DNA from: Sphingomonas sp. IW22
GTDB lineage: Bacteria; Pseudomonadota; Alphaproteobacteria; Sphingomonadales; Sphingomonadaceae
Assembly (NCBI RefSeq): GCF_041321155.1
Contig: NZ_JBGGWB010000001.1
Coordinates: forward strand, 310,001-374,000
Length of the DNA stretch: 64,000 nucleotides
Reading direction: 5' to 3'
Part shown: one piece after another, positions 4,679 through 33,999 of the stretch
Numbering within the stretch: position 1 is the first letter of the stretch
Layout of the letters: every line of letters begins with the position of its first letter
Notes under the pieces: model-generated
What the model saw: only the letters and a program-made list of their open reading frames with translations
What the model was told of the DNA's origin: nothing
The model's database searches: none
Position numbers and translations under genes: made by a program

Positions 4679-5761
4679 TCAGTGCTGCGTCTCGGACCCC
4701 GCCTTCATCGCTTCGGGTGCGTTGCTGTCGGCCGGCGCGGGGGCGTCGATCTCAGCAATATCAGCATCATGGCCCAGGGTGTCGCGCACCCACAACAACG
4801 TCACCAGCACGTACAGCACCACCGCCAGCGGTGCCGCGACGACCACACCGATCATCCCGAACAGGCTGCCCAGCGCGGCCAGCGCGAACAACAGCACCGC
4901 TGGCGGGATCGACACCGCGTATTTCTGGATCATCGGCGTCAGCACATTGCCTTCAAGCTGCTGCGCGATGACATAGACGACGATCGTCCACAGGATCGTG
5001 TCCGACCCCTGCGCCAGCGCCAGCAGGACGCCGGGCGCCGCGCCGATAAAGGGGCCGATCAGCGGGATGAAGTTGGTCAGGCCCGAAATCACCCCCAGCG
5101 CCGCCGCCGAAGGCACACCGACGATCATCAACCCGACCCAGATCAGCGTACCGACGATCAGCATCGTCGCAAATTGGGCAATCAGCCACTGGTTCAGCGC
5201 CTGTCCGCTCGCCGACAGCGCCTCACGCACGCGCTCCCCCTCCGATTTCGGGAACAGCTTTTCCACGCCGCGCATGTAGAGATCGGGGTCGAGCGCCAGA
5301 TAGATTGCCGCGACGATCACCAGCACCAGATTGGTGACTGCACCAACCGCGCCGAACGCGAACGACACGGCCCGGCCCATAATGCTCTGGATGTCGGGGG
5401 TGCCGGTCAGGAAACTGTTGAGGAACGGCACCTGTTCGACCAGCGAGCGCGCCTGTTCGAATGCGGTCGGCAATTGCTGTGCGACTTCCGTAAACTGCTC
5501 GGTCAGCTGTGCGCCGAACAGGAATCCGCACGCCGCCAGGACCGCCAGGATCAGGAAAAGCCCCAGAAACACCGATGGCATGTCGCCCATGCCGACCCGG
5601 CGGAACGGTGCGCCCGCGGCCCGGATCAGCGTCGCGACCAGAACGGCTGAAAAGATCAGCAGGAACACGAACGAAAACTGGACGGTCAGCAACGCCAGCC
5701 CGACGATCAGTAATATGACCAAGGTCGAACGCGCCACACGCGCCATGTCAGCCGAACCCAT
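4679..5761 (-). CDS. AI-2E family transporter (YdiK/PerM-like)
   Basis: This is a 360-residue inner-membrane protein of the AI-2E transporter superfamily. Substrates in the family vary or are unknown. There are two hydrophobic helices near the N-terminus (STLVILLIVGLALLTVQFSF onward). They are followed by the typical soluble stretch QLTEQFTEVAQQLPTAFEQ and a C-terminal block of helices containing GVPSAAALGVISGLTNFIP and the conserved GPFIGAAPGVLLAL. The start ATG at 5759-5761 has a GAGGGGG Shine-Dalgarno just upstream; a longer in-frame extension lacks this and reads as GC-rich noise. The charged C-terminal tail is short. It is transcribed divergently from acnA. Confidence 0.88.
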   Translation of the reverse strand: MGSADMARVARSTLVILLIVGLALLTVQFSFVFLLIFSAVLVATLIRAAGAPFRRVGMGDMPSVFLGLFLILAVLAACGFLFGAQLTEQFTEVAQQLPTAFEQARSLVEQVPFLNSFLTGTPDIQSIMGRAVSFAFGAVGAVTNLVLVIVAAIYLALDPDLYMRGVEKLFPKSEGERVREALSASGQALNQWLIAQFATMLIVGTLIWVGLMIVGVPSAAALGVISGLTNFIPLIGPFIGAAPGVLLALAQGSDTILWTIVVYVIAQQLEGNVLTPMIQKYAVSIPPAVLLFALAALGSLFGMIGVVVAAPLAVVLYVLVTLLWVRDTLGHDADIAEIDAPAPADSNAPEAMKAGSETQH

Positions 5762-31434: not shown

Positions 31435-33138
31435 ATGGCTACCAACCCAACCCGCGACGATTTCGCCGCGATGCTCGACGACATGTTCGGCGGCGCCGAC
31501 AGCTTTGAAGGCCGCGTCGTTCATGGCACCGTCACCGCCATCGAAAACGACCTGGCCGTCATCGACGTCGGCCTGAAGTCCGAAGGCCGCGTGCCGCTGC
31601 GCGAATTCGCCGCCCCCGGCCAGAAGGCCGAGCTGAAGGTCGGTGACGAGGTCGAGGTTTATGTCGACCGCGTCGAAAACGCCAACGGCGAAGCGATGCT
31701 GTCGCGCGACCGCGCACGCCGTGAAGCCGCCTGGGACAAGCTGGAACTCGAATTCTCGCAGGGCAACCGCGTCGAAGGCGTGATCTTCGGCCGCGTGAAG
31801 GGTGGCTTCACCGTCGACCTGTCGGGCGCCGTGGCGTTCCTGCCGGGTTCGCAGGTCGATATCCGCCCCGTCCGCGACGTCACCCCGCTGATGGACCTGC
31901 CGCAGCCGTTCCAGATCCTGAAGATGGACCGCAAGCGCGGCAACATCGTCGTGTCGCGCCGCGCCGTTCTGGAAGAAACGCGCGCAGAACAGCGTTCGGG
32001 CCTGATCCAGTCGCTGGCCGAAGGTCAGATCATCGACGGCGTCGTCAAGAACATCACCGATTACGGTGCGTTCGTGGACCTGGGCGGCATCGACGGCCTG
32101 CTGCACGTCACCGACCTCAGCTACAAGCGCGTCGGCCATCCGTCGGAAATGCTGAACATTGGCGACACGGTGAAGGTGCAGATCATCCGCATCAACCGCG
32201 ACACCCAGCGCATCTCGCTTGGCATGAAGCAGCTTGAAAGCGATCCGTGGGATGGCGCAGGCGCCAAGTATCCGGTCGGCGCCAAGCTGTCGGGCCGCGT
32301 GACCAACATCACCGAATATGGTGCGTTCGTCGAACTGGAGCCGGGCATCGAAGGCCTGGTCCACGTGTCGGAAATGAGCTGGACCAAGAAGAACGTCCAT
32401 CCGGGCAAGATCGTCAGCACTTCGCAGGAAGTGGAAGTCGTCGTGCTCGAGGTCGACGAGGACAAGCGCCGCATCTCGCTGGGTCTGAAGCAGGCGCAGC
32501 AGAATCCGTGGGAGCGTTTCGCCGAGCAGCACCCGGTCGGCAGCGAAGTCGAGGGCGAAGTCAAGAACGCCACCGAATTCGGCCTGTTCATCGGCCTGGA
32601 CGGCGACGTCGACGGCATGGTCCACATGTCGGACATCGCTTGGGGCATCTCGGGCGAGGACGCGCTGGCGCTTCACCGCAAGGGCGAGATGGTCAAGGCC
32701 ATCGTTCTGGCGGTCGAAGCCGACAAGGAGCGCATCTCGCTCGGCATGAAGCAGCTTGAGCGTGGCGCGCCTGTCGCAGGTGCCGCTGCAACCGGCGGTC
32801 GCGTCAACAAGAACGAGATCGTCACCGTCACTGTCCTCGAAGTCCGCGACGCCGGGCTGGAAGTGCAGACCGGCGACGACGGCGCAACCGGCTTCATCAA
32901 GCGCACCGATCTTGGCCGCGACCGCGACGAACAGCGTCCGGAGCGTTTCCAGGTCGGCCAGAAGTTCGACGCGATGGTCACCGGCTTCGACCGTTCGAAG
33001 AAGCCGACCTTCTCGATCAAGGCGATGCAGATCGCCGAAGAGAAGCAGGCCGTGGCGCAGTATGGCTCGTCCGACTCGGGCGCGTCGCTGGGCGACATCC
33101 TGGGCGAAGCGCTGAAGGCACGCGGCGAAAACCGCTAA
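31435..33138 (+). CDS. rpsA: 30S ribosomal protein S1
   Basis: S1 brings structured or weakly ribosome-binding mRNAs to the 30S subunit. The 567-residue protein contains six S1/OB repeats. Repeat landmarks are VHGTVTAIENDLAVIDVGLK (1), NRVEGVIFGRVKGGFTVDLS (2), IIDGVVKNITDYGAFVDLGG (3), KLSGRVTNITEYGAFVELEP (4), EVEGEVKNATEFGLFIGLDG (5) and VTVLEVRDAGLEVQTGDDG (6). RISLGMKQL recurs between repeats. The ATG at 31435 (MATNPTRDDFAAMLDDMFGG) is far inside a longer in-frame extension that overlaps the opposite methyltransferase gene. A strong terminator follows the stop. Confidence 0.97.
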   Translation: MATNPTRDDFAAMLDDMFGGADSFEGRVVHGTVTAIENDLAVIDVGLKSEGRVPLREFAAPGQKAELKVGDEVEVYVDRVENANGEAMLSRDRARREAAWDKLELEFSQGNRVEGVIFGRVKGGFTVDLSGAVAFLPGSQVDIRPVRDVTPLMDLPQPFQILKMDRKRGNIVVSRRAVLEETRAEQRSGLIQSLAEGQIIDGVVKNITDYGAFVDLGGIDGLLHVTDLSYKRVGHPSEMLNIGDTVKVQIIRINRDTQRISLGMKQLESDPWDGAGAKYPVGAKLSGRVTNITEYGAFVELEPGIEGLVHVSEMSWTKKNVHPGKIVSTSQEVEVVVLEVDEDKRRISLGLKQAQQNPWERFAEQHPVGSEVEGEVKNATEFGLFIGLDGDVDGMVHMSDIAWGISGEDALALHRKGEMVKAIVLAVEADKERISLGMKQLERGAPVAGAAATGGRVNKNEIVTVTVLEVRDAGLEVQTGDDGATGFIKRTDLGRDRDEQRPERFQVGQKFDAMVTGFDRSKKPTFSIKAMQIAEEKQAVAQYGSSDSGASLGDILGEALKARGENR

Positions 33139-33337: not shown

Positions 33338-33622
33338 ATGATACGTTCGGAGCTTGTCCAACTTCTGGTGCGCGACAATCCCGACCTTTCGGTTCGCGAT
33401 GTGGAGCGCATTGTGAACGTCTTTTTCGACGAGATCGTAGCCCGGCTGTCGCAGGATGGCCGCGTCGAGCTCCGCGGCTTTGGCGCCTTTTCCACCCGCG
33501 CCCGCGATGCGCGTACAGGTCGCAACCCGCGCACCGGCGAAATGGTCTCCGTCGCGGCAAAGCGCGTGCCCTATTTCAAGCCGGGCAAGGAAATGCGCGT
33601 TCGCCTGAACGTCAGCGAATAA
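33338..33622 (+). CDS. ihfB: Integration host factor subunit beta
   Basis: IHF is a DNA-bending heterodimer used in recombination, replication and transcription. The 94-residue HU/IHF-fold protein has [20 protein letters not shown] at its start. The beta-arm signature [20 protein letters not shown] continues with RNPRTGEMV, including the Pro that intercalates DNA. The subunit is beta by its IRSELVQ start. A promoter with a palindrome lies upstream, and a tRNA gene follows 52 bases downstream. Confidence 0.95.
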
Positions 33623-33674: not shown

Positions 33675-33999
33675 GCGGGCGTGGCGGAACTGGTAGACGC
33701 AACGGACTTGACGTGGAAATTGAGTGCGCCCGGCGGAAACGCGGGACGTAGAACTGCTCAAATTCGGGGAACCCTGTAAAATGGCGATCCCGAGCCAAGC
33801 CCGTCGAGCCAAGGCGAAAGGCGGGAAGGTGTAGAGACTAGACGGGCAGCACCTGCACCCCGGACCGGGGCATGGTGAAGGGATAGTCCAGACCCCAAAC
33901 GCGCCGCCACTCGGCCGCGCGGCGGCGAAAGCCGTGGCGGGTAAGAAAATCCGTAGGGCCGAACGGCTCGTGGGGGTTCGATTCCCCCCGCCCGCACCA
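33675..33999 (+). tRNA. tRNA-Leu(UAA) split by a group I intron
   Basis: The 5' exon (33675-33709) contains acceptor GCGGGCG, a D-arm GCGGAACTGGTAGACGC, anticodon-stem strand ACGGA and loop bases C, T, T. The 3' exon (33946-33999) begins AAAA, then TCCGT (pairs with ACGGA), a long class II variable arm with GGCC/GGCT, T-arm GGGGG-TTCGATT-CCCCC, acceptor CGCCCGC, A and an encoded CCA. Joined, the loop reads CTTAAAA with anticodon UAA, for leucine UUA/UUG codons. The intervening 236 bases are a group I intron between U34 and A35. All stems pair perfectly, so the gene looks functional after splicing. Confidence 0.93.
33710..33945 (+). ncRNA. Group I self-splicing intron in tRNA-Leu(UAA)
   Basis: The intron follows U34 and ends in G, as group I introns do. 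P1: exon ACTT (33706-33709) pairs with the internal guide GAGT (33722-33725), giving the required U-G wobble at the 5' splice site. P4: TCGGG (33764-33768) pairs with CCCGA (33789-33793). The Q-like GAGCCAAGCC, the R element with GAGACTA (33834-33840) and the S element GGATAGTCC (33881-33889) are present. P7 forms between GACTA (33836-33840) and TAGTC (33884-33888). The layout resembles the small subgroup IC3 introns in cyanobacterial and plastid tRNA-Leu(UAA). It holds no homing endonuclease frame. Confidence 0.9.

Follow-up and report, generated by a model that had tools for sequence, protein, structure and literature searches.

A probable self-splicing group I intron in tRNA-Leu(UAA) of Sphingomonas sp. 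IW22, at a locus where tRNA genes may be exchanged whole

Introduction

The only tRNA-Leu(UAA) gene that we found in the genome of Sphingomonas sp. IW22 is a copy split by an intron, and this is very probably a self-splicing group I intron lying directly after U34. Judged by their sequences, related introns at the same site are widely scattered over the Alphaproteobacteria and some other bacteria (Acidobacteriota, Binatota), and within Sphingomonas the intron and its tRNA gene seem to come and go together. The window analysed here, meaning the whole stretch of DNA, is 64,000 nt of the IW22 assembly (GCF_041321155.1, NZ_JBGGWB010000001.1, positions 310,001-374,000, forward strand), and coordinates are window positions unless a locus label precedes them. 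G-numbers denote genomes, with G000 for IW22 itself, and L-numbers denote loci.

Cyanobacteria and plastids share the tRNA-Leu(UAA) intron, which is the textbook example of an ancient one and in cyanobacteria also follows U34. The IW22 intron resembles the cyanobacterial and plastid one in its host tRNA, in its position after U34 and in being a small group I ribozyme, but the hosts are Alphaproteobacteria and others, and the likeness considered here is one of tRNA and site. Small group I ribozymes in proteobacterial tRNAs are also represented by the introns in tRNA-Ile of Azoarcus and tRNA-Arg(CCU) of Agrobacterium; the IW22 intron differs from these in tRNA, position and guide. In the Azoarcus intron both L2 and L9 have a GAAA loop, and P8 is of the CCTAA type.

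In the portions available to us, PMC3984707 and PMC4033280 both name the Azoarcus intron; the former holds neither the word 'proteobacteria' nor 'tRNA-Leu', and the latter places bacterial tRNA introns usually at 37/38. The passages on tRNA introns available to us from the tRNAscan-SE 2.0 paper (PMC8450103) note group I introns in tRNA-fMet and tRNA-Ile2, which share with ours the effect that the tRNA gene vanishes from standard annotation but sit in other host tRNAs, and these passages do not mention tRNA-Leu(UAA) in Proteobacteria. A literature search that covered few subscription journals found no report of the intron in the present hosts. The element itself is of a familiar kind, and its evolutionary pattern merits further study.

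The intron and its host gene

With introns allowed, ARAGORN reads a class II tRNA-Leu(UAA) gene with an encoded CCA at 33675-33999 on the forward strand, whose exons (33675-33709 and 33946-33999) join to form an 89-nt class II tRNA, CCA included. The intron (33710-33945, 236 nt) lies between U34 and A35 and its last base is G (Table 1). A sequence-only reading of this stretch had proposed just such a gene with a 236-nt group I intron, on which ARAGORN with introns and the Rfam alignment agree; it had further described a complete class II tRNA with CCA, as the joined exons fold, an insertion after U34 with a terminal G, which the junction 33709/33710 and G33945 bear out, and the helices P1 (ACTT/GAGT, with a U-G pair), P4 and P7, for which we read the same pairings. 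Upstream lie a gene that we take to be ihfB, the name given to it in the same reading, and what is presumably the 3' end of rpsA, encoding ribosomal protein S1.

Table 1. Features of the intron-split tRNA-Leu(UAA) gene and its upstream neighbours
Feature	Position	Strand	Remarks
putative rpsA (ribosomal protein S1), 3' end	32701-33138	+	name tentative
ihfB (presumed)	33338-33622	+	upstream neighbour, marker of the orthologous locus
5' exon of tRNA-Leu(UAA)	33675-33709	+	last base U34 (GGACTT)
group I intron, 236 nt	33710-33945	+	terminal G at 33945
P1	33706-33725	+	exon ACTT 33706-33709 / guide GAGT 33722-33725; U.G at splice site
P2 hairpin	33726-33749	+	GAAA loop 33736-33739; from predicted fold
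P3	33754-33849	+	CTGCTC 33754-33759 / GGGCAG 33844-33849
P4	33764-33769 / 33788-33793	+	helix nearly invariant in covariation alignment
P5	33773-33774 / 33783-33784	+	helix in covariation alignment
P6	33795-33796 / 33828-33829	+	helix in covariation alignment
P6a	33800-33803 / 33822-33825	+	helix in covariation alignment
P7	33836-33888	+	GACTA 33836-33840 / TAGTC 33884-33888; pseudoknot with P3
P8	33850-33877	+	33850-33853 / 33874-33877; covariation alignment
P9 region	33900-33935	+	hairpins 33900-33921 and 33922-33935; GAAA loop in second; predicted fold
3' exon of tRNA-Leu(UAA)	33946-33999	+	starts AAAATCC; encoded CCA at end

The IW22 intron shows the marks of a group I intron, namely a pseudoknotted P3-P7 core with P4-P6 and P8, the U.G pair of P1 and a terminal G, and we take the ribozyme to be IC3-like, of the bacterial tRNA type. 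The guide of P1 is GAGT at 22 of the 23 loci of the genus and GGGT, which pairs too, at the remaining one (L121), so that all 23 have a pairing guide. Among 135 tRNA-Leu(UAA) introns, GAAA occurs in L2 in 124 and in L9 in 121, as counted by a script rule with near-copies included, and the 5' side of P8, CCTGC in the IW22 intron, is CCTAA in 82. No open frame of endonuclease size was found inside the intron, the longest frame of at least 30 amino acids lying wholly within it having 36, and the IW22 intron does not carry the encoded endonuclease by which a homing endonuclease element is recognised.

The predicted fold and established group I chemistry suggest how splicing would proceed. The precursor would be transcribed downstream of ihfB and the ribozyme would fold through P3-P9, after which an external guanosine would attack after U34, the base that forms the U.G pair of P1; once released, U34 would attack after the terminal G33945 and the exons would be ligated, giving a normal tRNA that reads UUA and UUG.

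Structural support

Covariation among related loci supports the predicted fold. The 325-nt stretch is matched end to end, at 82-85% identity, in three of 60 other genomes, and relatives were recognised with a core model, R1, built from four sequences and covering P3-P6 and P8, with P7 left out. In 81 R1 matches in the 80 loci listed from at least 119 stretches of a DNA pattern scan, 97.5% of cells pair, both sides change in 12 of 30 pairs and covariation is 0.227 against a shuffled mean of 0.077, a value reached by none of 500 shuffles, although these figures are biased upwards, since related sequences were aligned by the model itself and part of P1 and of the 5' strand of P3 was imposed by the search pattern. 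Slid controls pair at 32-49%, and one P3 pair changes from UA to CG in 13 of 80 rows. P7 provides support from outside the model: invariant in the 80 listed loci (A4) save for one G-U and one gapped row, it changes in the 55 rows of the class set (A5) from U-A to C-G in 11 rows, and from A-U to G-C in 12 and to U-A in six, with the two-sided changes at pairs 4 and 5.

Intron state at the rpsA-ihfB locus

Within the genus, ihfB lies on the same stretch at 20 of 23 intron-bearing loci (21 if a longer stretch is taken for G087, leaving L128 and L130) and in 52 of the 57 intron-free genomes read, the intron-free loci having been chosen partly by exon likeness and partly from the list of matches to an intact-UAA-arm pattern. 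The distance from ihfB to the intron-free tRNA is 38-336 bases in 51 of these 52 and 1,342 in one. A tree of the flanks (the rpsA end plus ihfB) was made from 79 loci, comprising 28 intron-bearing ones, 20 of which belong to the genus, and 51 intron-free ones, which all do. On this tree the intron state changes 10 times, with at least nine changes forced by starred branches, a bootstrap range of 10-10 and a shuffled mean of 23.

The tRNA itself differs along with the intron state. In a matrix of 72 genus loci, the tRNA starts with GCGGGCG at all 20 intron-bearing loci and with GCGGACG at 39 of the 52 intron-free ones; L128, one of three intron-bearing loci outside this matrix, has GCGGACG, the other acceptor type. 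At the 13 intron-free loci that have the intron-type acceptor, clean loss or gain of the intron is possible. The closest mixed pair, G211 with the intron and G120 without, has flanks that are 95.5% identical and mature tRNAs that are only 69.7% identical, whereas the tRNAs are identical in all 12 same-state pairs with flanks of at least 95%.

Among pairs with flanks of at least 87%, the spacer aligns above background in none of 15 mixed pairs, which derive from few events, in 23 of 27 intron/intron pairs and in 16 of 36 free/free pairs, a contrast partly due to distance since flanks are generally more alike in intron/intron pairs than in mixed ones. The downstream DNA aligns in 0 of 15, 13 of 27 and 11 of 36 pairs respectively, and thus fails to align in 14 intron/intron and 25 free/free pairs as well. 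The upstream half of the locus alignment is badly gapped for L125/L362, and these comparisons use pair scores only.

As both the spacer and the tRNA differ in the closest mixed pairs, a likely way for the state to change is that the tRNA gene is replaced as a unit. We think it fairly probable, from comparison of these loci, that the patchy presence of the intron reflects exchange of a whole intron-bearing tRNA gene against an intron-free gene from another lineage. Recombination of the whole tRNA locus is said to have been proposed for the cyanobacterial intron too, by Rudi et al. in 2002. Older transfers between distant bacteria would come in addition to the exchange at this locus, and kin of the intron would occasionally have moved into further tRNA genes in which a U precedes the splice site. 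An origin of the intron-free UAA genes from tRNA-Leu(CAA) is not a general route, the median identity being 70.6% and that of the best pair 88.1%; single cases of such an origin are left open.

Descent of the intron

An alternative is that the intron has long been present in the family and was passed on by descent, most species having lost it cleanly or by replacement, with no transfer between species. We regard this as rather unlikely, although it accounts for several observations: the same neighbour gene is found in other genera of the family, such as Sphingobium and Rhizorhabdus, 12 of 14 intron-bearing tRNAs of the family are of the genus type, and 13 of the 52 intron-free genus loci have the intron-type acceptor. 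Against it, a tree of 60 tRNA-Leu(UAA) introns rejects a single clade for each of two groups that were fixed by taxonomy before the tree was made, the genus (AU p 0.0105) and the family (AU p 0.0202); the tRNA body differs with intron state in close pairs; and copies occur on plasmids and viral-labelled contigs (see below).

The IW22 intron itself is a less clear case. By its flanks, the host kin of IW22 are G027, G279, G296, G297 and G316 (99/84), and a clade of its intron with those of these kin, a group chosen after the flank tree, is not rejected (p 0.358), which is again in favour of inheritance. In both intron trees, which are short (237-250 columns) and have many open forks, the rows at the shortest path distance from the IW22 intron, L136 and L142, belong to another genus, and in one of these trees the introns of the host kin (G027 and the others) group with those of Methylocystis and Caulobacteraceae (99/93). 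Transfer at greater depth therefore appears better supported by the trees than the IW22 intron's own descent with its kin.

Spread across bacteria

R1 finds the intron or its relatives in 24 of 295 genomes of the genus (23 in tRNA-Leu(UAA), one in tRNA-Lys), 20 of 396 of the order and 49 of 385 of the class, G000 being included each time and all host tRNAs being taken together for order and class; these counts are lower bounds because stricter filters were applied and 7-10 candidates were scored per genome, and for the same reason absence from a genome scan carries little weight. The sequence-only reading had thought the site unusual in a sphingomonad, the best-known tRNA intron of Alphaproteobacteria being in tRNA-Arg(CCU). 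Rarity is not supported, either in the genus or in Alphaproteobacteria: the intron is in tRNA-Leu(UAA) in 23 of the 295 genus genomes, and the 55 matches of the class scan, G000's own excluded, comprise 17 in tRNA-Leu(UAA), nine in tRNA-Arg(CCU) and seven with no host assigned, among others.

The DNA pattern scan of named genomes gave at least 119 stretches; 80 of them (L153-L232) are listed, and every one of these is matched by R1. Many of the hosts are metagenome assemblies, and the scan says nothing of other tRNAs since a Leu-type 5' end was required. Hosts among the matches listed are Sphingomonas (S. yantingensis and S. canadensis among others), Sphingobium, Zymomonas, Rhizorhabdus, Bradyrhizobium, Caulobacter, Phenylobacterium, Rhodobacter, Devosia, Chelatococcus, Methylocystis, Acidobacteria assemblies and Candidatus Binatus.

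Same-site introns in Alphaproteobacteria, Acidobacteriota and Binatota raise anew the question of whether the intron is ancient or was transferred, and the sphingomonad rpsA-ihfB-tRNA locus, with its many state changes among close species, makes this question testable. A recent direct transfer of the cyanobacterial or plastid intron is very improbable. The host tRNA is the same (according to the portion of PMC4033280 available to us), but same-site introns occur throughout Alphaproteobacteria and in Acidobacteriota, and the nearest rows in our trees, which were built without cyanobacterial sequences, are alphaproteobacterial.

Two further observations belong here. On one acidobacterial contig about 3 kb separates a pair of intron-bearing tRNA-Leu(UAA) genes (L196:1801-1947 and 4933-5080), and G516 has a weak group I core of 28.7 bits with no assigned host tRNA (L152:1501-1635).

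Host tRNAs of related introns

Host tRNAs were assigned for 189 core matches (A3, A4 and A5), some of which are the same locus or near-copies, with 15 rows, including six of the nine in tRNA-Arg(CCU), set by hand where scores were tied or the best was plainly wrong. Leu(UAA) after position 34 accounts for 135 of the 189. The others are Arg(CCU) after 36 (9), Lys(UUU) after 34 (7) and after 35 (7), Thr(GGU) after 36 (5), Lys(CUU) after 35 (4), Leu(CAA) after 33 (3), Thr(CGU) after 36 (2) and Arg(UCU) after 34 (1), while 16 were not assigned. In a tree of 160 introns, most of those from other hosts fall among the Leu(UAA) rows, and the Leu(UAA) host state changes eight times, at least five of them forced by starred branches, against a shuffled mean of 33.4; single host switches are not certain, with 63 of the 156 inner branches left open and long branches joining one another. 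Eight of the nine Arg(CCU) introns of the class scan form one starred set with three Leu(UAA) introns of Rhodobacter and its kin.

In the order scan, L131 (G080), L147 (G408), L148 (G326) and L151 (G331) are related introns in other tRNAs, namely tRNA-Lys(UUU) after U34 or U35 and tRNA-Arg(UCU) after U34. Alphaproteobacterial introns in Thr(GGU), Thr(CGU), Lys(CUU) and Leu(CAA) are found at L308, L312, L314, L316, L317, L330, L332, L301, L307, L315, L337, L311, L334 and L335. L319 (G653) is a second, weaker copy that looks degraded, its 5' exon making no tRNA in our search.

Plasmids and viral-labelled contigs

Matches were found in 1279 of 72,556 plasmid records, 1266 of them over at least 80% of the query, at identities of 60-80%. 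Genes were inspected in three of these records. The Citrobacter freundii plasmid pCTX-M3 (L281:4001-4254) and an Acinetobacter gerneri plasmid (L283:4001-4255) each carry a complete, unannotated intron-bearing tRNA-Leu(UAA), about 0.7 kb and 2.2 kb respectively from aac(3)-IId, and a Bradyrhizobium plasmid typed as conjugative carries another.

Phage records gave six weak matches, none covering more than 80% of the query. Among viral-labelled contigs nine matched, and the seven that could be assigned are four in Leu(UAA) and three in Lys(UUU), two of the latter being alike. Seven of ten proteins of L273, L278 and L279 have PHROGs matches, which fits viruses and is no proof of them. The assigned contigs (L272, L273, L274 and L276-L279) range from 23 to 381 kb. 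Phage introns known at the time of a 2014 review were all in protein genes, according to the portion of it available to us (PMC3984707).

We put forward, tentatively and in the knowledge that it may well prove wrong, a broader reading. The tRNA-Leu(UAA) intron would then not be a hallmark of cyanobacteria; it would be the most frequent form of a family of small group I introns that occurs in tRNAs across the bacteria. It would move as a complete intron-bearing tRNA gene that takes the place of the resident tRNA at a set chromosomal address, would also be carried by plasmids and viral-labelled contigs, and would have seeded the anticodon loops of Lys(UUU), Lys(CUU), Arg(CCU), Arg(UCU), Thr and Leu(CAA).

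Detection by standard models

Rfam Intron_gpI aligns over its full length (model 1-253) with 43.9 bits and an E-value of 5e-10 in 481 nt searched, and in the whole genome the IW22 tRNA-Leu(UAA) intron is its sole match (E 9.6e-10). This score lies below the gathering score of 50, which we take as a curation threshold and not as a defining trait of group I introns. The check with Intron_gpI suggested by the sequence-only reading therefore gave the full-length match but at a score under the cut-off, and to count the lack of an Rfam hit as a refutation, as that reading proposed, would have misled. At gathering level no Rfam family is found in the whole 64-kb window, and default ARAGORN finds no tRNA there, so routine annotation would miss the intron-bearing gene. 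Default tRNA and Rfam scans thus overlook a probably essential tRNA gene here, and automatic tRNA sets of such genomes may be without a reader of UUA.

ARAGORN's own placement of introns also led to the names Ser and Ala for G027, G019 and G034, which are false; junctions were rederived because of this misplacement, with U/G junctions tested under the P1 rule.

Need for the gene

We read 39 of the 44 tRNA matches in the IW22 genome (38 named by ARAGORN, L070 without a name), and the other Leu genes among them are CAA, UAG, CAG and GAG; the remaining five, at 71-74 nt, are too short for tRNA-Leu. The intact-UAA-arm pattern has no match in G000. By these tRNA reads and this pattern, the genome shows no second intact tRNA-Leu(UAA), which the sequence-only reading had named as something that would make the split copy dispensable. 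UUA makes up 19 of 17,816 codons, in 15 of 43 long open reading frames of the window chosen by length alone. With no other UAA gene found and UUA codons in use, the mature tRNA should be needed. That the gene is a decayed pseudogene with a non-splicing relic, UUA being read otherwise, is hardly credible, for the sub-threshold Rfam score and the departure of the 5' side of P8 from its commonest form stand against core helices that pair, exons that make up a full tRNA, the lack of another UAA gene among those found and the use of UUA.

Across the genus, the intact-UAA-arm pattern has at least one match in 266 of 295 genomes, some of these not being intact genes, and is absent from 19 of the 23 genomes with the intron in tRNA-Leu(UAA). 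Among the other four, the matches of G144 and G145 prove to be the beginnings of introns, ARAGORN does not recognise the one in G087 as a tRNA, and G203, a metagenome assembly, has two matches.
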